A DNA stretch of 64,000 bases. Origin: Leucobacter sp. CX169 (GTDB taxonomy: Bacteria > Actinomycetota > Actinomycetes > Actinomycetales > Microbacteriaceae). Position 1 is the first letter of the stretch, and every line of letters begins with the position of its first letter. Location of the stretch: positions 2,356,001 through 2,420,000 of the forward strand of contig NZ_CP071051.1 in assembly GCF_017161405.1 (NCBI RefSeq). Direction: 5' to 3'. Positions 8,873 through 64,000 of the stretch are shown here, piece after piece. The translations under genes and the position numbers were made by a program. Under the pieces are notes generated by a model. It did no database searches, was not told the DNA's origin, and saw only the letters and a list, made by a program, of their open reading frames with translations.

Positions 8873-9232
8873 CTACCCCGCCCAAATCGAGAGCATACGC
8901 AGCGTCATCACCGCGACCGCGACATTCACCACGGCGAGCACCAGGTTGGCCCAGGGGGTGCGGTCAATCAGCGCCCAGACGACCGCACCAATCGGCAGCG
9001 CGAACGCGACGATGAGGTAGAGCCAAAACTCGAGCGGGTCTCCCACCGACGGGTTGCCTGCCAGCGGGGCAACAATCGACCAGACCACTTGGACGAACAA
9101 CAAGAGCGCCACCAAGAGCGTCGCGCCCAGCGAGATGTCATTCGGCGAGCTCTTGCGCGCGAACAACACGATGCCGACGAGGGCCGCAATCGCCGCCACC
9201 CCGACGATCGCGAACGCGAATCCCGCGATCAC
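8873..9232 (-). CDS. Conserved small membrane protein, function unknown
   Basis: 119 residues with four hydrophobic stretches separated by short loops (ARKSSPND, AGNPSVGDP, DRTPW). It overlaps the end of truB by four bases (ATGA at 9229-9232) and is followed 21 bases later by the next membrane protein gene, so truB, this gene, the next one and ribF look like one operon. No function can be assigned. Confidence 0.7.
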   Translation of the reverse strand: MIAGFAFAIVGVAAIAALVGIVLFARKSSPNDISLGATLLVALLLFVQVVWSIVAPLAGNPSVGDPLEFWLYLIVAFALPIGAVVWALIDRTPWANLVLAVVNVAVAVMTLRMLSIWAG

Positions 9233-10146
9233 TGGGCGCCGCCCGTCGGGAAGTTGACGACGACTCGCGTTGCCCCGCGCCGGATCTTCACGAGGCCCAC
9301 GAGGCGACCGTCGGGCGCCATCGCGCCGACAACCGGGGCGTCATCCGCGTCGGGCACCGCCAACGATTTGCCCTGACTCAGGTCAGTGGTCTGCTGCTCG
9401 GTGAGGTTGATGGTGGGAAACAGGGTCGCGGCGATCGCGGCCGGGCTGTGCAGCGCAGGCGACTCGCCAGAGACCAGCTGCTCCATCGAAATCGCGTCCT
9501 CCACCGAGAACGGGCCGACCGCGGTGCGGCGAAGCGCAACGAGGTGGCCCCCAACGCCGAGCGCCTTGCCGAGATCCCGGGCGAGGGCGCGAATGTAGGT
9601 ACCTGAGGAGCAACGGACGGTCGCGTCGATATCGATGGCGGGCTCGCCGCTCGGAAGCGTTGCCGGGCGCGGCTGACCGAGGGAGAACTCGTGCACCGTG
9701 ACGGGCCGTTGCTTGAGTTCGACTTCCTCGCCGGCGCGCACCAGGTCGTAGGCGCGTTTCCCATCCACCTTGATCGCGCTGACCGCACTCGGGGACTGCA
9801 TGATCGCGCCGGTCAAGGGCGCTACCGCCTGCATGATTGCGGCGGCGTCGACACGCGCCAGCACTTCAGGGTCGGCGAGCTCGAGCACATCGCCCTCGCG
9901 GTCGTCAGTGACGGTGGTCGCACCGAGGCGAATCGTCGTAACGTACGTTTTATCGAGCCCGACCATGTAGGTGAGGAGGCGGGTCGCCGGGCCGGCCCCG
10001 AGCGTGAGCAGGCCGGTCGCCATGGGGTCGAGCGTCCCGGCGTGGCCGACCTTCTTCGTCCCCAACGCGCGGCGTGATCTCGCGACCACGTCATGACTCG
10101 TCCAGCCCTCCGCCTTATCGACGAACAGGATCCCGTTCGGTAACAC
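9229..10146 (-). CDS. truB: tRNA pseudouridine(55) synthase
   Basis: Converts U55 of tRNA to pseudouridine. 305 residues. Motifs: GILFVDKAEGWTSHDVV at the start, KVGHAGTLDPMATGLL with the catalytic Asp near residues 38-45, and SGTYIRALARDLG in the second half. A C-terminal PUA-like region follows (GRLVGLVKI). The GTG at 10146 is preferred because a GGAGGGAGG lies a few bases upstream and the protein then begins exactly with the family N-terminus; the frame is open far upstream but that part is antisense to mutY. Confidence 0.95.
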   Translation of the reverse strand: MLPNGILFVDKAEGWTSHDVVARSRRALGTKKVGHAGTLDPMATGLLTLGAGPATRLLTYMVGLDKTYVTTIRLGATTVTDDREGDVLELADPEVLARVDAAAIMQAVAPLTGAIMQSPSAVSAIKVDGKRAYDLVRAGEEVELKQRPVTVHEFSLGQPRPATLPSGEPAIDIDATVRCSSGTYIRALARDLGKALGVGGHLVALRRTAVGPFSVEDAISMEQLVSGESPALHSPAAIAATLFPTINLTEQQTTDLSQGKSLAVPDADDAPVVGAMAPDGRLVGLVKIRRGATRVVVNFPTGGAQ

Positions 10147-55247: not shown

Positions 55248-55581
55248 AGTTCCATCAGAGAGAGGGATCATGGCCCGGTCGACCAACGCCGCCTCCTCCT
55301 GGCAGATCAACTCAACCAGGGTGCCCTTCGGCGCTCATCGTGTCGGCGAAGCCCTTCATCAGTGGTTGCCGGGGGCAGGTTCACCCACCGGTGCACTGAC
55401 TCATGGGGCGACAACGACCTGGCAAGCATCGACCGAGGACGCAGCAGCAAACCTAGGGCGCCTTATGAACCGCCGGGTGCAGCGCAAGGGGATTGCAGGG
55501 AAAGCTATATTGGCCACCAATTTCTAGTGCAATAATGACCTTTGCCAGTTGGCAATTTTGTCCTCGGCTGGAGGGCACACG
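55248..55581. other. Gene-free stretch between IS3 element A and the LuxR leader
   Basis: Short frames exist on both strands, none with a recognisable product. A GGAGGG just before position 55576 belongs to the leader ORF at 55582. Base composition is lower in GC than the chromosome. Confidence 0.5.
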
Positions 55582-55689
55582 ATGACGTGGGCAGATGGGT
55601 ACGCGCTATGGAATCCGCTTCAGGGCAGCCGATTACTTCTGATCGAAGCAGGCCTTTCGGGCTATCCTCGACTGCGACCGCTCCGGTGA
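55582..55689 (+). CDS. 35-residue leader ORF coupled to the LuxR-type gene
   Basis: MTWADGYALWNPLQGSR then LLLIEAGLSGYPRLRPLR. It has a strong GGAGGG six bases before the ATG, and its TGA overlaps an in-frame ATG of the regulator (TGATG at 55687-55691). The regulator itself has no good ribosome site at earlier starts. It may be a leader that couples translation, or the remains of an N-terminus cut off by a frameshift. Confidence 0.45.
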   Translation: MTWADGYALWNPLQGSRLLLIEAGLSGYPRLRPLR

Positions 55690-57728
55690 TGTTCGCCTAC
55701 GCGAGCCACTTTTTGCTGTTCCACCGCGTCACAGAACACAGCATCTCGCTGTTGCAGACGGCCTTCCCGCGACGCTTCTCTGCTGAGCGTGACCGACCTG
55801 CACTGGAGGCCGGGCATTTCGTGGGCGCCAGCCTACTCGAGCGATTTGCGGAGGCTGGGTATCTCGAACCGGCGGATCGAGCTGACCATCGTGGCCAAGA
55901 GACGTGGGTCGTTCCCACGGAAATAAGGGAGATTTTGCAACATGAGTTACTTCGGTACGGGCCGACGAGACATGAATCGGAACTCACCCAGGGCGGATCT
56001 GGGGTTGAAGCCGCGCTGCTCTCGTGTCGGCGGCACCTCATCGAGCCCCTGCGTTCGGCCGCCGCGGACACGGCGTCCGGGGAGCCCCTGATTGGGGAGC
56101 TCGCCGTGCAGTTGCGCTTCGCATCGGAGTGGTCCGGCCTGCAGGAACTTTGGTATCGCTACGGCATGCGTGTAATGGTCACGGATCCGGTCGCCATTCA
56201 CGAGGCATTCGGTTCAATACCCGAGCCGAAATTGCATGACTACCCCGGTCTGTGGCTCGCTCACGTCTACGTTGAATCGACCTCAGTCATGCAGCGAGTG
56301 CGGAGTCTTCCCGCGGGGGAAAACCTCGATCTGATTGTTGAGCGGCTTTCGCTGCAGGTTACCGAATGCACTGCCACTTTGGGGCCTCGATGGCACAGCA
56401 TGGGAACGGCTGATGCCCGTCTGCATGTCGGGATCAATTGGATGCGGTTCCAGCGGCTGCGGGGTGACTTTACCGGAGCACTCACAACCCTCGATGAACT
56501 ACGGCAGTTGCTTCCAGACAACGAATCAACGGGCATCTCCGCATCGGATCGCAACCGGGCGTTCTTTCGCCTCGAGCAGGGGATCCTGTACTTCTTTGTG
56601 GATCGACTGCCCGAAGCGTTGGAGGCGCTGCGCGAATCGACTTTGCTCTGGCAGCGCCCGGGGTATGGCGACTACATACCGGCGTTTGCGTGGGCGCTGA
56701 TGGGGTTGATCTACGAACTGCGCGGCCCGAGAGTGCAAGCTGTGGAGTGTCTCGCTCAGGCGCAGGCCATCTTCGGTGAAGTCTGGGATTTCGAGTACGT
56801 GTCGGTTCTAACAATGACCGTAGAGGCGATGCTGGCACTTGACCGACTTGATATCGAGCGCGCACAGGTACTGCTTGAACGGCTGGAATTCGCGGCGCCT
56901 CGCTCTGAACTGTGGCCTGTCGTAATGCTCACCCAGCAGTGGGCTGAGTTGCTGTCGGGTGACCTCGCGGCGGCGGCACGAGCACAGACGCGACTGAGTG
57001 AGCGGGCAACCGGATCAGGCCGATTGAGCCCGTTCGCCGTGAGCATCGTCCACCGTGTTCGTGTCGTGGGGCTACTGGCTCTGGGACAGGCTCAGCGGGC
57101 CCGCGGCTACCTTGAGCGTCAGGCAGATACTCCTGTTCCGCCCTCGCACGAGAGCTGGGCGGGCCTGATGCTCGCCGCTGGGCGCATCGATCTGGTGCTG
57201 CGCCACGTTGATATCGCGCTGAACGATCCGCGCGCCTCTGATCGTGATCGCGCCGCGGCGCACCTGATGGGTGCCGCGGGACATCTGGCGCTCGGCGACG
57301 AACCTGCTGCGGATCGTGCGTGCCACCTCGCAACGCGTGAAATGGCTCTCGCCTGCTCGTTGGTTCCGCTCGCGGCGTTGCCGTCCAGTGTTCGCGCCGA
57401 GCTCGCGGCAAGATGCGCGAAGACACCGGGGTGGAGCGGACTGCTGGAACGTCTCGAGTTGGATCCGGAGGAAGTAGGGCAGCGGATCGCGGCGATTGGG
57501 GGCGATGCTTCTGAGACAGCGTTGCTCGTCGACTTGACGTCTCGCGAAGCGGATCTGCTCCGGCTGATCGATCAAGGTCTGACGCAGGCTGACATGGCCC
57601 TGCGCTTGCACGTTGCGCTCACGACAGTCAAGAAGCAAGTCGCTGCGCTCTATCGCAAGTTGGGCGCCGACTCTCGGGCAGGGGCGCTCGAGAAGGCGTA
57701 CCGTATCGGCTTGTTCGACGGCCGCTGA
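55689..57728 (+). CDS. Large LuxR-family transcriptional regulator
   Basis: 679 residues if started at the ATG coupled to the leader; the frame is open to 55542 with ATG 55608 possible. The C-terminal 65 residues are a LuxR HTH (LTSREADLLRLIDQGLTQADMALRLHV and TTVKKQVAALYRKLG). The middle 400 residues are helical with TPR-like patterns, as in MalT-type regulators, but no Walker A motif or NTPase domain is seen. Its codon use and base composition are less GC-rich than the chromosome. It lies upstream of the split sortase gene in the same direction and may control the sortase and surface protein. Confidence 0.8.
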   Translation: MFAYASHFLLFHRVTEHSISLLQTAFPRRFSAERDRPALEAGHFVGASLLERFAEAGYLEPADRADHRGQETWVVPTEIREILQHELLRYGPTRHESELTQGGSGVEAALLSCRRHLIEPLRSAAADTASGEPLIGELAVQLRFASEWSGLQELWYRYGMRVMVTDPVAIHEAFGSIPEPKLHDYPGLWLAHVYVESTSVMQRVRSLPAGENLDLIVERLSLQVTECTATLGPRWHSMGTADARLHVGINWMRFQRLRGDFTGALTTLDELRQLLPDNESTGISASDRNRAFFRLEQGILYFFVDRLPEALEALRESTLLWQRPGYGDYIPAFAWALMGLIYELRGPRVQAVECLAQAQAIFGEVWDFEYVSVLTMTVEAMLALDRLDIERAQVLLERLEFAAPRSELWPVVMLTQQWAELLSGDLAAAARAQTRLSERATGSGRLSPFAVSIVHRVRVVGLLALGQAQRARGYLERQADTPVPPSHESWAGLMLAAGRIDLVLRHVDIALNDPRASDRDRAAAHLMGAAGHLALGDEPAADRACHLATREMALACSLVPLAALPSSVRAELAARCAKTPGWSGLLERLELDPEEVGQRIAAIGGDASETALLVDLTSREADLLRLIDQGLTQADMALRLHVALTTVKKQVAALYRKLGADSRAGALEKAYRIGLFDGR

Positions 57729-58595: not shown

Positions 58596-58889
58596 ATGCC
58601 CAAGCCGTTCCCCAAGGAGTTCCGCGACGACGTCGTCCGGGTCGCGCAGAACCGCGACCCAGACGTCTCCCTCGCGCAGATCGCGAAGGACTTCGGCGTC
58701 CATGTCGGAACTCTCGACAAGTGGATGCGTCAAGCCCGCATCGAAGCCGGCGAACAGCCGGGTGAGACGAAGCAGGATTCCGCCGAGCTGCGCGAGCTCC
58801 GTAAGCGCAATCGCCTCCTCGAGCAGGAGGTCGAGGTGCTGCGTCGCGCGACCGCGTATCTGTCCCAGGCTCATCTGCCGGGAAAATGA
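58596..58889 (+). CDS. IS3 element B orfA
   Basis: 97 residues. HTH in VSLAQIAKDFGVHVGTLDKWM and a coiled-coil helix ELRELRKRNRLLEQEVEVL. AAGGA lies upstream of the ATG. It is related to orfA of element A but clearly different in sequence, so the two elements are not copies of each other. Overlaps orfB by ATGA. Confidence 0.93.
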   Translation: MPKPFPKEFRDDVVRVAQNRDPDVSLAQIAKDFGVHVGTLDKWMRQARIEAGEQPGETKQDSAELRELRKRNRLLEQEVEVLRRATAYLSQAHLPGK

Positions 58890-59788
58890 TGTACCCGCTC
58901 GTGAGCGAGCTCGCCGCCGACGGAATCCCTGTCGTGGTGTCGTGCCGGGTCTTGAAGCTCGCTCGCCAGCCCTACTACCGCTGGCTACGTGATCCTGTGA
59001 CAAGCCGGGAGCTCGAGGAGGCGTATCGGGCGAACGCGCTGTTCGACGCGCACCGCGACGACCCGGAGTTCGGGTATCGGCTCCTCGCCGACGAGGCCCG
59101 CGAGGAGGGCCAGGCGATGTCGGATCGGACCGCGTGGCGGATCGCATCATCGAATGGCTGGTGGAGTGTGTTCGGGAAGAAGCGGAGCAAGAACGGCAAG
59201 AAGTCTGGCCCCGCCGTTCACGACGATCTCTGCGTCGTCATCGACGAGCACGGGCGTGAGCGTCACCGGTTCGTGGCGTCCCGGCCGAACCAGCTCTGGC
59301 TGACCGACATTACGGAACACAAAACGAGCGAAGGTCGGCTCTATCTTTGCGCGGTCAAAGACGCCTTCAGCGGTCGGATCGTGGGTTACTCGATCGACTC
59401 GAGAATGAAGGCATCACTCGCGGTCCGAGCTGTCCGCAACGCCGTCCGGATGCGCGGAAACGTGAACGGCTGTATCGTCCATTCAGACAGAGGATCGCAA
59501 TTCCGAAGCAGGAAACTGCGCCGCGAACTTGCCGTCCATAATCTCGTCGGATCGATGGGCAGAGTCGCTTCCTGCGGCGACAACGCGGCAATGGAATCGT
59601 TCTTCAGCCTGCTGCAGAAAAACGTCCTGAACCGACGTTCCTGGGCCACGCGCGAACAGCTACGCATCGCGATCGTGACCTGGATCGAGCGGACCTATCA
59701 CCGCAGGCGTCGCCAGGTCCGTCTGGGCCGTTTGACGCCGATCGAGTTCGAGACCATCATGAACAACGACCTGGCCCTCGCGGCCTAA
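58886..59788 (+). CDS. IS3 element B orfB transposase
   Basis: 300 residues with an intact DDE triad: Asp in LWLTDITEHK, Asp in IVHSDRGSQ and Glu in NAAMESFFSLLQK. The full C-terminal part LGRLTPIEFETIMNN is present, unlike in element A. Starts ATG within the orfA stop, suggesting translational coupling in place of the programmed frameshift common in the family. Confidence 0.93.
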   Translation: MMYPLVSELAADGIPVVVSCRVLKLARQPYYRWLRDPVTSRELEEAYRANALFDAHRDDPEFGYRLLADEAREEGQAMSDRTAWRIASSNGWWSVFGKKRSKNGKKSGPAVHDDLCVVIDEHGRERHRFVASRPNQLWLTDITEHKTSEGRLYLCAVKDAFSGRIVGYSIDSRMKASLAVRAVRNAVRMRGNVNGCIVHSDRGSQFRSRKLRRELAVHNLVGSMGRVASCGDNAAMESFFSLLQKNVLNRRSWATREQLRIAIVTWIERTYHRRRRQVRLGRLTPIEFETIMNNDLALAA

Positions 59789-59823: not shown

Positions 59824-60158
59824 ATCCGCCCGATGAGGGTGAAATGTTCTGGCAGATCGTTGATGGAGCGAACGGATACCCGGAGGATGGTGGCACCGAC
59901 TATGTCATTGCACACTCCTGCACGAGCGGTGACTGCGCCGGCGACCCGGTAAGAAAACTCGCCATGGGCGACACCTTCACATATCGGGGAGTCCTGTTTG
60001 TTGTGCTGACGACAATAGAGGCGGAACAGGACGCGATCAGCGGGATGGATATTTGGCAGCACCAGCCTGACCGTCTGGTCCTGATCACATGCCCACTGGG
60101 CGACGAGTCGGGCGAGCTCGACAGTAACTTCGTCGTCATCGCTCAGCCTGCCGCCTAA
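59824..60158 (+). pseudogene. Sortase gene, 3' part with catalytic Cys
   Basis: Continues the split sortase: EMFWQIVDGANGYPEDGG, the catalytic His in DYVIAHSCTSGDC, LAMGDTFTYRG, and the catalytic Cys in RLVLITCPLGDESG, ending VVIAQPAA. Sortases cut the LPxTG-like signal and join the surface protein to the cell wall. The third catalytic residue, Arg, is expected shortly before VVIA; here the residue seems to be Asn (DSNFVVIA). Alone this part lacks the membrane anchor. An internal ATG at 59844 could start a short soluble piece. Confidence 0.8.
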
Positions 60159-60443: not shown

Positions 60444-63400
60444 TTATCCTTCGTTTCGGGCTCCTTCTTTCGCCTCCCGCTTACGCCGCATCACCAACAG
60501 TGCGCCAGCGGCAACCATCAGGCTGCCCAGGGCGAACAGGAACACTGGAATCTCACTGCCGGTGTGAACCAGAGGAGTGCCGCCAGCGGTCGGAGGCTGC
60601 GGAACCAACGGGGTCTCCGGAACCACTGGGGTCTCGGGGATCGGATCGGAGATCGGAGTCGACCAAGTCGATACTGCCGTGACCGGGTCGCCCTTCCACC
60701 TCGGCGTACCCGTCACTGATCCCACGTTGGTGTAGCTTTCGCTGTCACCCACTGAACCAGTACCCATGCACTCCATCGACTCGCCGACCTCAAGGGTGTC
60801 CTGCGGGCAGGTCACCACGACACCTTGATCGTCCGTGACAATCACGTTCTCAAGCGGTTGACCACCCGTGTTCACGACCGTGTACGTCCACGTCAGTTCG
60901 GCATCCTTCTCGACCCGGTCACCGATGGCAACATCCACAGCGTCCTTAATGATGCCGACCGTGACCGGCGGGAAGCCGAGCGGTACAGTCCACGGATCCG
61001 CATCGTCGACGGGCTCGCCAGAGACTGTGCCGACCGCATCGACCTCCATCAGGTTCGTGTACTCGTCGTCCGAACCGATAGAGCCGGATCCGGTGCACAC
61101 CATCGCTTCGTTCACGTCGAGCGTGTCCTGCGGGCAGGTCACCACGACACCCTGGTCATCAGTGACGACGATGTCTTCCAGCGGCTCCTCGCCATTGTTA
61201 GTGACCGTGTACTGCCAGTCGACAACATGGAAGGCGGGAGTGAACTCGCCCTCGACCGCGTTCAGCGCACCCTTGACACCGACAATGCTCGGCACAGGGT
61301 AGCGCACCTGAATGGTCCAGGGGTCGTCATCCGTGACCGGAGTGTCCGTGAGAGTTGTGATGCCCCTGACCGTGCCGATGTTCGTGTAGCCGGGACCCGC
61401 GCCTATGCTTCCCGAACCAGCGCAGATCATGTTCGCGCCGACCGCGAGCTCCGTTGCGGGGCAAATCACGGCCACTCCCTGGTCGTCGACCAGCTCGATG
61501 TCTCCGATCGGCTCCTCGCCGTTGTTGGTGACGAGGTACTCCCAGTCAACAACGGTTCCGGGGATCTCGGTGCCTCCCTCGGTTACTGCGGGTGCGTACT
61601 TGTCCAGCGTGATGCCGACCGTGTACGGAGTCACGTTCACGGACCAGTCGTCAATATCTGACACTGGGGTGGCCGTGTACCCGCCGACCGCGCGAGCGGT
61701 AGCGATATTGGTGTAGCGCGAACCGAAGCCGACACTACCGGTACCGGTGCACACTGTACTGTCACCCACTACGAGGGTGGCGACCGGGCATGTGACCGGC
61801 ACGTTCTGGTCATCCACCACTGTGAGGTTCACGAGCGTATCCGTGCCCGTGTTCGTGACGGTGTAGGTCCAGTCGACGAGAGTTTCTGCACCAACGGTGC
61901 TTCCCTCCGCAACGCCGGGAGCGTCCTTCACGAGATCAATGGTCGGAACGAGCGGAATGATCCGCACATCCCAGTCGTCGAGCGCGGTGACTGCGCCACC
62001 CGTGTGCAGTCCTGTACCTACCACGATGCCGGTGTTCTCGTACGGTGTCGCGGTGCCGACGTTGCCGGTGCCAAGGCAGTCCATACTGGCCCCGACAGCG
62101 AGAGTTGCTGAGGGGCAGAGGACAGCGACACCCCTGCTGTCAGTAACCACCAGGTTCTCAAGCTCCTCCGTACCGCCGTTCGTCACACGGTAGGTCCATT
62201 CAACGTCGGTGTTTGCTTCAATCAAGCTGCTCTGAGCAACTGACGCGGCAAACTTATCGAGAGACACGATCGGCTCCACTGCACGCACGGCTTCGGTGCA
62301 CTCAGGGTCCGTGCTGTTCGGCGGGCAGTTCGTCGGGACGAGTCCGACAGTGCCGACGACGCGATTGATTGCGCCCGCAGCAGGGGTAGCTGCGGTGGCT
62401 CTCATCGTAATGGTGATCGTCGCTGATGCTTCTGGACCTAGATCGCCAACCCAAACGTAGGACTGGGTTGCGCTGTCATAGGTGACGGTGCCACTCGTGG
62501 AGGTAGGCGCAGACGCCTCCTCCATGTACGGCAGGATGCCAGCCACATTGTCGACCACACGGACACCGTTTACCGCCGACGTCAGCCGGTTGGTGACGTC
62601 GATGTTGTAGGTGACGAGATCACCGATTGCGACCGGGCCTCCCGCCTGCGGGCTCGACTTCTGCACAATGACATCGGCCGGCATCGCAATACCGGTGCGT
62701 GCGGTCTCCGCAGCAACCATCGACCCGGGGCCGTTGTTCGCGCGAGATGCAACCGAGTTCCAGGCAGGAACACCGCTCTGCGTCCCTGCAGGGATCTGCA
62801 TGGAGAACGTGATGTCGATGCTCTGTCCGCCGGTCCAGTTACCCGGGAGGGTGATCTTCATGCCACGCACCGCTGAGTTACCGCCGAGCGACGCGGTGTT
62901 CGTCGTCCAATTGTTGACGCACGCAGTGAGCGCCGGGTTGACCTCGGGGCGGCACGCGTTGTCCGAGTTCGTAAACTCGACCACTGCGCCCACAGGGACA
63001 GGGGCAGTGAGACCCGAGAACACCGGGGTGAACTCACTTCCGCGCGGCTGTGTCGCCTGAGCTGCCACCGTGCCGGTGTCATTCAGGCGGGGAAACATGT
63101 CGTACATGACGATGTTGTTGAGCGTCGGCTGACCGGCGTTCTCCCAGTGGATGCGGTACTCGGCAGCGCCAGAAGGCGTGATTGCGGTCTGGTTTGCGCC
63201 GAACCAAGTCGACGTGCCCAGGTCGCGAGCGAATTTCTGTACAACAGAAGTCGCGGCAGCCTCACGGGGGAGAAACTGCGCCCAACCCGTTGCTCGACAG
63301 TTCGAGTCATCCGTTGCGAGACCATCATTGTCGATGTCGCGGGGATCACCCGGAGCGAGCGTGTTGTAGTGCAAGCAGCTCTGGACCTGAGTTGGCCCAC

Positions 63401-64000
63401 CGTTCAGCGAGGTCATCGCTTCAACGGTTTGATAACCAAACCTGTTCCCCGTGCCCACTTCAACCACCGATGTGACTGAAATGTAGGGCCACGAAGCACT
63501 CGAATCCGTCACGTCAGGTACCGCGGGGGTTCCTGCGCGAGGGATCACGAGAATTCGGGGAAGGGTCCCTGCGGCATCGTCGCCCGGGATGAACGTGATG
63601 TCGTAGTTTGCGGTGACCAGGGCATTATCCTGGTCCCTGATGGCCACCGTTGACACGTTGCCACCGGGTATCGTGTATCCGGCCGGGAGCACTGTGGTGT
63701 AGCTCGGCAGGCCAAGAGCCGGGTCAAGACCCCAGGTGCCAAAGCTGCCGCGGATGGTGCGAACACCGCTACCCGGCGACTCGGACAGGCCAATGAACGC
63801 CACTGCGGTGTTCCGCTCCTTCACGACGCCAACACCAGGCGGGGTGATGCCTTCTTCCGCCCAACCGTTCGCGCCTTCCACATCGATGACCGCACGGTTA
63901 TGCAAGTTCATGGAAGTGTCTGCCAGAGGCGTCAGTCGGGTGGTGAGATTGATGCGAATGCCACCGTCGAGAGTCAGCGGATTCAGCACCATCTTGAACC
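60444..64000 (-). CDS. Giant sortase-anchored surface protein (5' end beyond window)
   Basis: At least 1185 residues; the frame is still open at base 64000, so the N-terminus and signal peptide are outside. The N-terminal visible part has beta-sandwich adhesin-like sequence. A DUF11-type domain (VAIGDLVTYNIDVTNRL) follows, then five tandem repeats of about 108 residues, a Pro/Glu/Thr-rich wall-spanning stretch (PETPVVPETPLVPQPP), the sorting signal LVHTG (60558-60572), a hydrophobic helix and RRKR. It is the likely substrate of the split sortase, which faces it. It probably acts as an adhesin or surface fibre, by family analogy. Confidence 0.88.
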   Translation of the reverse strand, partial: FKMVLNPLTLDGGIRINLTTRLTPLADTSMNLHNRAVIDVEGANGWAEEGITPPGVGVVKERNTAVAFIGLSESPGSGVRTIRGSFGTWGLDPALGLPSYTTVLPAGYTIPGGNVSTVAIRDQDNALVTANYDITFIPGDDAAGTLPRILVIPRAGTPAVPDVTDSSASWPYISVTSVVEVGTGNRFGYQTVEAMTSLNGGPTQVQSCLHYNTLAPGDPRDIDNDGLATDDSNCRATGWAQFLPREAAATSVVQKFARDLGTSTWFGANQTAITPSGAAEYRIHWENAGQPTLNNIVMYDMFPRLNDTGTVAAQATQPRGSEFTPVFSGLTAPVPVGAVVEFTNSDNACRPEVNPALTACVNNWTTNTASLGGNSAVRGMKITLPGNWTGGQSIDITFSMQIPAGTQSGVPAWNSVASRANNGPGSMVAAETARTGIAMPADVIVQKSSPQAGGPVAIGDLVTYNIDVTNRLTSAVNGVRVVDNVAGILPYMEEASAPTSTSGTVTYDSATQSYVWVGDLGPEASATITITMRATAATPAAGAINRVVGTVGLVPTNCPPNSTDPECTEAVRAVEPIVSLDKFAASVAQSSLIEANTDVEWTYRVTNGGTEELENLVVTDSRGVAVLCPSATLAVGASMDCLGTGNVGTATPYENTGIVVGTGLHTGGAVTALDDWDVRIIPLVPTIDLVKDAPGVAEGSTVGAETLVDWTYTVTNTGTDTLVNLTVVDDQNVPVTCPVATLVVGDSTVCTGTGSVGFGSRYTNIATARAVGGYTATPVSDIDDWSVNVTPYTVGITLDKYAPAVTEGGTEIPGTVVDWEYLVTNNGEEPIGDIELVDDQGVAVICPATELAVGANMICAGSGSIGAGPGYTNIGTVRGITTLTDTPVTDDDPWTIQVRYPVPSIVGVKGALNAVEGEFTPAFHVVDWQYTVTNNGEEPLEDIVVTDDQGVVVTCPQDTLDVNEAMVCTGSGSIGSDDEYTNLMEVDAVGTVSGEPVDDADPWTVPLGFPPVTVGIIKDAVDVAIGDRVEKDAELTWTYTVVNTGGQPLENVIVTDDQGVVVTCPQDTLEVGESMECMGTGSVGDSESYTNVGSVTGTPRWKGDPVTAVSTWSTPISDPIPETPVVPETPLVPQPPTAGGTPLVHTGSEIPVFLFALGSLMVAAGALLVMRRKREAKEGARNEG
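60650..62276 (-). repeat. Five tandem ~108-residue repeats in the surface protein
   Basis: Each unit has the pattern hydrophobic-K-A/G...V(D/E)W(T/E)Y.VTN.G...L..(I/L).V.DD(Q)G V.V.CP...L.VG..M.C.G(T/S)G(S)(I/V)G...YTN. Units start near 62276, 61955, 61628, 61298 and 60971 (minus strand). Every unit has exactly two Cys, in (V/I)xCP and xxCxGxG, spaced about 13 residues, so one disulfide per unit is likely. The two nearest the C-terminus are the most alike. Confidence 0.85.

Follow-up and report, generated by a model that had tools for sequence, protein, structure and literature searches.

The window analysed here, a stretch of 64,000 nucleotides of Leucobacter sp. CX169 (NZ_CP071051.1, positions 2,356,001 to 2,420,000), carries near its right edge the minus-strand gene of a putative surface protein (open reading frame at 60444..63998), the 5′ part of which lies past that edge. 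In the whole genome, a single contig of 2,941,848 bases, the full frame comprises 1714 codons (1714 aa; G000:C1:2416444-2421588). Its N-terminus reads by eye as a signal peptide, and a Pfam search gave the domain order ahead of the C-terminal sorting signal as one DUF11 (CLIPPER) domain (62385..62675, residues 442-538 of the in-window part), which lacks the Cys pair described below, followed by five DUF7507 domains. The sorting signal (60447..60572) consists of LVHTG, a hydrophobic stretch and an RRKR tail, and its profile matches are marginal: 27.1 bits against a cut-off of 27 for NCBIfam LAVTG NF058582, 16.1 against 15.9 for TIGR01167, and 17.6 for Pfam Gram_pos_anchor PF00746, under the cut-off of 20. 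Five genes in the genome encode sortase domains. We regard the protein as probably secreted, sortase-anchored and fibrillar, with its best anchor matches marginal. The whole frame contains 26 Cys, or 24 without the two in or before the presumed signal peptide; a further Cys pair, CPPNSTDPEC (62298-62327, minus strand), lies where the DUF11 domain ends, immediately before the first DUF7507 unit.

A transposase pair on the plus strand (58596-59788), two overlapping frames with an rve integrase core in the second, lies some 650 bases beyond the gene's downstream end; we take it to be of IS3 type. In the interval that separates it from the gene, a 104-aa frame (59844-60158, plus strand) had no Pfam match at E 0.01, and farther out a 728-aa frame (55542-57728, plus strand) appears by eye to end in a LuxR-type DNA-binding domain.

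The repeat array spans 60657-62291 on the minus strand with a unit period of exactly 109 residues (327 bases), rather than the approximately 108 originally given. Read in the direction of translation, unit 1, assigned to DUF7507/CLIPPER_2 by Pfam and repeat alignment, occupies 61965..62291 (Cys codons 62115-62117 and 62076-62078), unit 2 61638..61964 (61788-61790 and 61749-61751), unit 3 61311..61637 (61461-61463 and 61422-61424), unit 4 60984..61310 (61134-61136 and 61095-61097) and unit 5 60657..60983 (60807-60809 and 60768-60770). As the original prediction had it, these are five tandem units that each hold a Cys pair at fixed places: Cys59 and Cys72 are present in all five at a spacing of 13, with CP at the first and CxGxG at the second, and the 545 repeat residues contain 10 Cys in total, all in columns 59 and 72. 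Ungapped identity between units is low (38-51 of 109 residues; 47-57% in DNA), which implies that the copies are old and that the constancy of the Cys does not stem from recent duplication. Random placement would let four more units match the Cys of unit 1 with p ~8e-16, a value that ignores common descent and so rules against coincidence only. The DDQG segment, said to precede the first Cys throughout, does so in three units, and is replaced by DDQN in unit 2 and DSRG in unit 1. Its first residue, D51, is the only invariant one in the segment and probably serves as catalytic Asp for an isopeptide bond.

The units belong to a named family. On the whole protein, Pfam DUF7507 (PF24346) scores 109.7 bits against a cut-off of 27; scored singly in the genome search, units reached 33, 31 and 30.8 bits, above the cut-off, and 24.1, below it, while one at 26.7 bits passes when counted with its neighbours. 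DUF7507 was renamed CLIPPER_2 in a 2025 survey, which built the family from predicted isopeptide domains, described its tandem use in surface proteins, and gave a reference triad of Lys72/Asp112/Asn152 (PMC12617251). Lys13 of our units is profile position 8 and would be the published Lys72 if the opening positions align ungapped; Asp51 and Asn86 were matched to the published triad by order and coupling, not by residue alignment to the reference. Pfam family, tandem position in a stalk, Lys/Asp/Asn triad and seven strands are common to the units and the published CLIPPER_2 domains, and we found no difference between them (PMC12617251). The five units are thus ordinary members of an adhesin stalk domain family that was described only recently, and both the family and disulfides inside it are already in print. 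The survey places CLIPPER_2 disulfides "at various sites"; we found no published description of the Cys59/Cys72 pair, though its supplementary tables may list disulfide sites (PMC12617251).

Whether Cys59 and Cys72 pair was approached through covariation in relatives, collected from 80 bacterial and archaeal loci (one scan of genome contigs) and from 40 genomes including the window's own. Twelve of the 40 genomes, again including the window's own, contain a similar sequence at E 0.001, none close enough to count as a strain for comparing repeat number. An iterated profile search returned 703 domain matches, of which the window's own 6 and 29 duplicates were taken out to leave 668 distinct relatives. 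The contig scan used patterns from these very units, so that Cys frequency in the sample is biased upward; such a bias cannot by itself create an all-or-none pattern. Both Cys are present in 361 relatives, neither in 272, the second only in 14 and the first only in 6, with 15 gapped, so that 633 of the 653 scorable relatives are all-or-none and 20 have a single Cys. Among 423 representatives below 60% identity (239 with both, 163 with neither, 18 with one, 3 gapped), the Cys pair is the top column pair both by MI-APC (0.453, next 0.268) and by mean-field direct coupling analysis (DCA; 6.59, next 3.54). The couplings 57-74 and 61-70 are still among the strongest by DCA once the Cys columns are dropped, and 57-74, 59-72 and 61-70 together form an antiparallel ladder (sums 131) that sets Cys59 opposite Cys72 across a hairpin. 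Of the 361 two-Cys relatives, 248 have a spacing of 13; the others range over 12-28, and their alignment is less certain. In domains without the Cys, Phe, Tyr, Ile, Val or Leu usually take the second position, and the first is mixed, led by Leu, Ala and Pro.

Repeats of one protein share ancestry, and the pair could on that ground be merely inherited from a Cys-containing ancestor, unpaired or unimportant. We hold this to be highly improbable given that the phi of 0.913 for the Cys pair exceeds the best of 720 control column pairs (0.80; median 0.06), and that a tree built without both Cys columns needs at least 24 changes per site, with 12 of the 24 inferred changes shared in branch and direction. 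The same figure, 12 of 24, also counts against strictly joint change at the two sites; most of the remaining, non-shared changes would be attributable to the 18 single-Cys leaves. Conservation of the Cys for metal binding, as a redox switch, or for links between neighbouring units or molecules is likewise quite improbable: the ladder register sets both Cys opposite each other within one hairpin, the both-or-neither pattern also holds at loci with a single domain match (e.g., L061, L065), and the unit alignment showed no other conserved His or Cys. All-or-none covariation, top coupling and hairpin register together give good, indirect support to a disulfide within the unit, and a Cys59-Cys72 bond, which the original prediction had also proposed, is very likely on these sequence grounds.

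Units 4 and 5 were modelled together by AlphaFold2 from an alignment of 88 sequences, with a mean pLDDT of 92.4 and a pTM of only 0.73. In the model's first unit the strands run 10-16, 29-38, 44-51, 56-58, 69-77, 83-94 and 100-112, and the unit is modelled as a compact beta-sandwich of about seven strands. Cys72 lies inside strand 69-77, and Cys59 directly after strand 56-58, just outside it, which counts against cross-strand pairing. Searches for solved relatives by sequence, with a profile of the five units and one of the 88 two-unit sequences, returned chance-level matches only (best E 0.3 and 0.35) and hence no template for the Cys distance. Comparing the model with PDB structures recovered Ig-like domains in general, such as integrin legs and transglutaminase C-terminal domains, with a best match of Z 10.5 over 206 residues at 5.7 angstroms and no single family picked out. 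The CLIPPER structure 9IFR was not among the best 50 matches of either fold list, which excludes nothing.

Beside the Cys pair, Lys13, Asp51 and Asn86 are invariant in all five units (in unit 1, codons 62253-62255, 62139-62141 and 62034-62036) and agree with the Lys/Asp/Asn triad known from CnaA-like isopeptide domains. Independently of the published survey (PMC12617251), DCA ranks Lys13-Asn86 fourth and Asp51-Asn86 eighth. A tally over the 602 relatives in which none of the five columns is gapped found the triad intact in 546, of which 303 have both Cys, 227 neither and 16 one, so that the two cross-links are usually encoded together; in the 56 with a broken triad the corresponding numbers are 40, 13 and 3. 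Among both-or-neither domains the pair is thus commoner where the triad is broken (40 of 53 against 303 of 530, p 0.012; p 0.068 at <60% identity), p values that are uncorrected for descent, and this excess hints at a backup role over joint use. The disulfide might take the place of the isopeptide bond as the cross-link that stabilises the stalk repeats, a reading to which both the slight excess and the conservation of the Cys pair in every unit lend themselves. We nevertheless judge replacement improbable, as all five units keep the triad, the 303 relatives combine it with the Cys pair, and the triad couplings are among the strongest in the family. The second-strongest family coupling is Tyr34-Tyr84 (DCA 3.54; relatives L020-L119); these Tyr may correspond to the "aromatic cap" that the survey describes around such bonds (PMC12617251).

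These results overturn the contrast drawn at the outset between a disulfide here and isopeptide bonds in other fibres: the units keep the isopeptide triad five times out of five, in a family built from isopeptide domains. Nor are disulfides unusual in actinobacterial surface proteins. Actinobacterial cases include FimP of Actinomyces oris, described with both kinds of bond in 2012 (PMC3485203), and A. oris pilins, which are folded oxidatively via MdbA/VKOR (PMC5478893); the survey predicts disulfides in 29.7% of isopeptide-bonded CLIPPER domains, in 34.9% of the CLIPPER_2 ones and, for Actinomycetota, in 41.3% of isopeptide domains (PMC12617251).

The oxidative folding system that a disulfide would imply was found in the genome search, bearing out that part of the original prediction. 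One VKOR gene (112.9 bits, CPWC motif) is present, and Thioredoxin_4 matches above the Pfam cut-off occur at three places; there are four DSBA matches, two of whose places are common to the Thioredoxin_4 list. A Pfam-confirmed DsbA-like protein with CRFC, whose membrane anchor was read by eye, adjoins a DsbD_TM gene; others have CPFC and CPIC, and a DSBA match (L120) whose CPWC lies close to the N-terminus appears cytosolic by eye. An oxidative folding system is therefore encoded, as expected for actinobacteria. The VKOR and DsbA-like genes adjoin neither each other nor the surface protein gene, and their presence is consistent with action on the surface protein and no proof of it.

From the observed domains, residues, covariation and redox genes we infer, with high but not complete confidence, that the repeats are CLIPPER_2 stalk units of a sortase-anchored fibre, each with a Lys13-Asn86 isopeptide bond and a Cys59-Cys72 disulfide, the latter made by a DsbA-like/VKOR system. 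Five Ig-like beta-sandwich units would form the stalk of the surface protein; within each, an isopeptide bond would arise autocatalytically between Lys13 and Asn86, promoted by Asp51, and the disulfide would staple one antiparallel beta-hairpin across its strands. The disulfide would be formed after secretion by a membrane DsbA-like oxidoreductase, itself recharged by VKOR. An isopeptide bond would shield the loop that it closes from force. The predicted disulfide loop (59-72) would be nested in the isopeptide loop (13-86), and once the isopeptide bond had formed, pulling force would run from 13 to 86 and leave the hairpin unloaded; since residues 59-72 lie inside loop 13-86, the disulfide should, to judge from residue order, carry little force. 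Its role is probably in folding, in heat or protease resistance, or as a backup for units that lack the isopeptide bond. The modest addition made here is that nesting of the two loops would point to a role in folding or stability, not to load-bearing. More tentatively, and with doubt outweighing belief, Cys59-Cys72 could mark a recurrent doubly cross-linked design, in which the disulfide would act as a folding clamp before or during isopeptide closure or as a fallback, and which bacteria and archaea would have repeatedly gained or lost as one unit.

Known systems offer partial parallels. The closely related CLIPPER domain (PF01345, DUF11), one of which precedes the five units in our protein, is CnaA-like and combines isopeptide bond and disulfide in a single domain in crystal structure 9IFR; there the disulfide sits in the last strand as a tetrapeptide motif, CTTC, whereas that of our units would be a cross-strand pair 13 residues apart (PMC12617251). 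FimP is an actinobacterial sortase-anchored surface protein, as ours probably is, and it is stabilised by both isopeptide and disulfide bonds, as predicted for ours; it differs in being a pilin with other domains, the disulfide-bearing ones CnaB-like, and other Cys positions (PMC3485203). The MdbA/VKOR system of A. oris resembles what we report in that one genome encodes VKOR, extracytoplasmic DsbA-like proteins and sortase-dependent surface proteins; by domain match our DsbA-like proteins are candidate counterparts of MdbA, and the genes here are non-adjacent (PMC5478893). The analysis corrects an attractive but wrong contrast, in which disulfides stand in for isopeptide bonds, and assigns a conserved Cys pair to a named domain family. 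If the two loops are nested as proposed, the unit is a simple two-bond system in which the shares of isopeptide bond and disulfide in folding and mechanical strength are separable; if it is not, this is one more stalk domain of an already surveyed type.

Elsewhere in the genome, two of the five sortase genes are clustered with proteins that have GramPos_pilinD1 and SpaA domains. This pilin-like cluster (L127:2667-11914; G000:C1:806666-815913) comprises a large SpaA-containing protein that also has one DUF7507 domain, a GramPos_pilinD1 pilin and the two sortases. A transposase frame at 9195-10067 of that locus, similar by eye to that in the window, stands directly ahead of a 245-aa C-terminal pilin piece with LPLTG, and the pilin therefore looks truncated.
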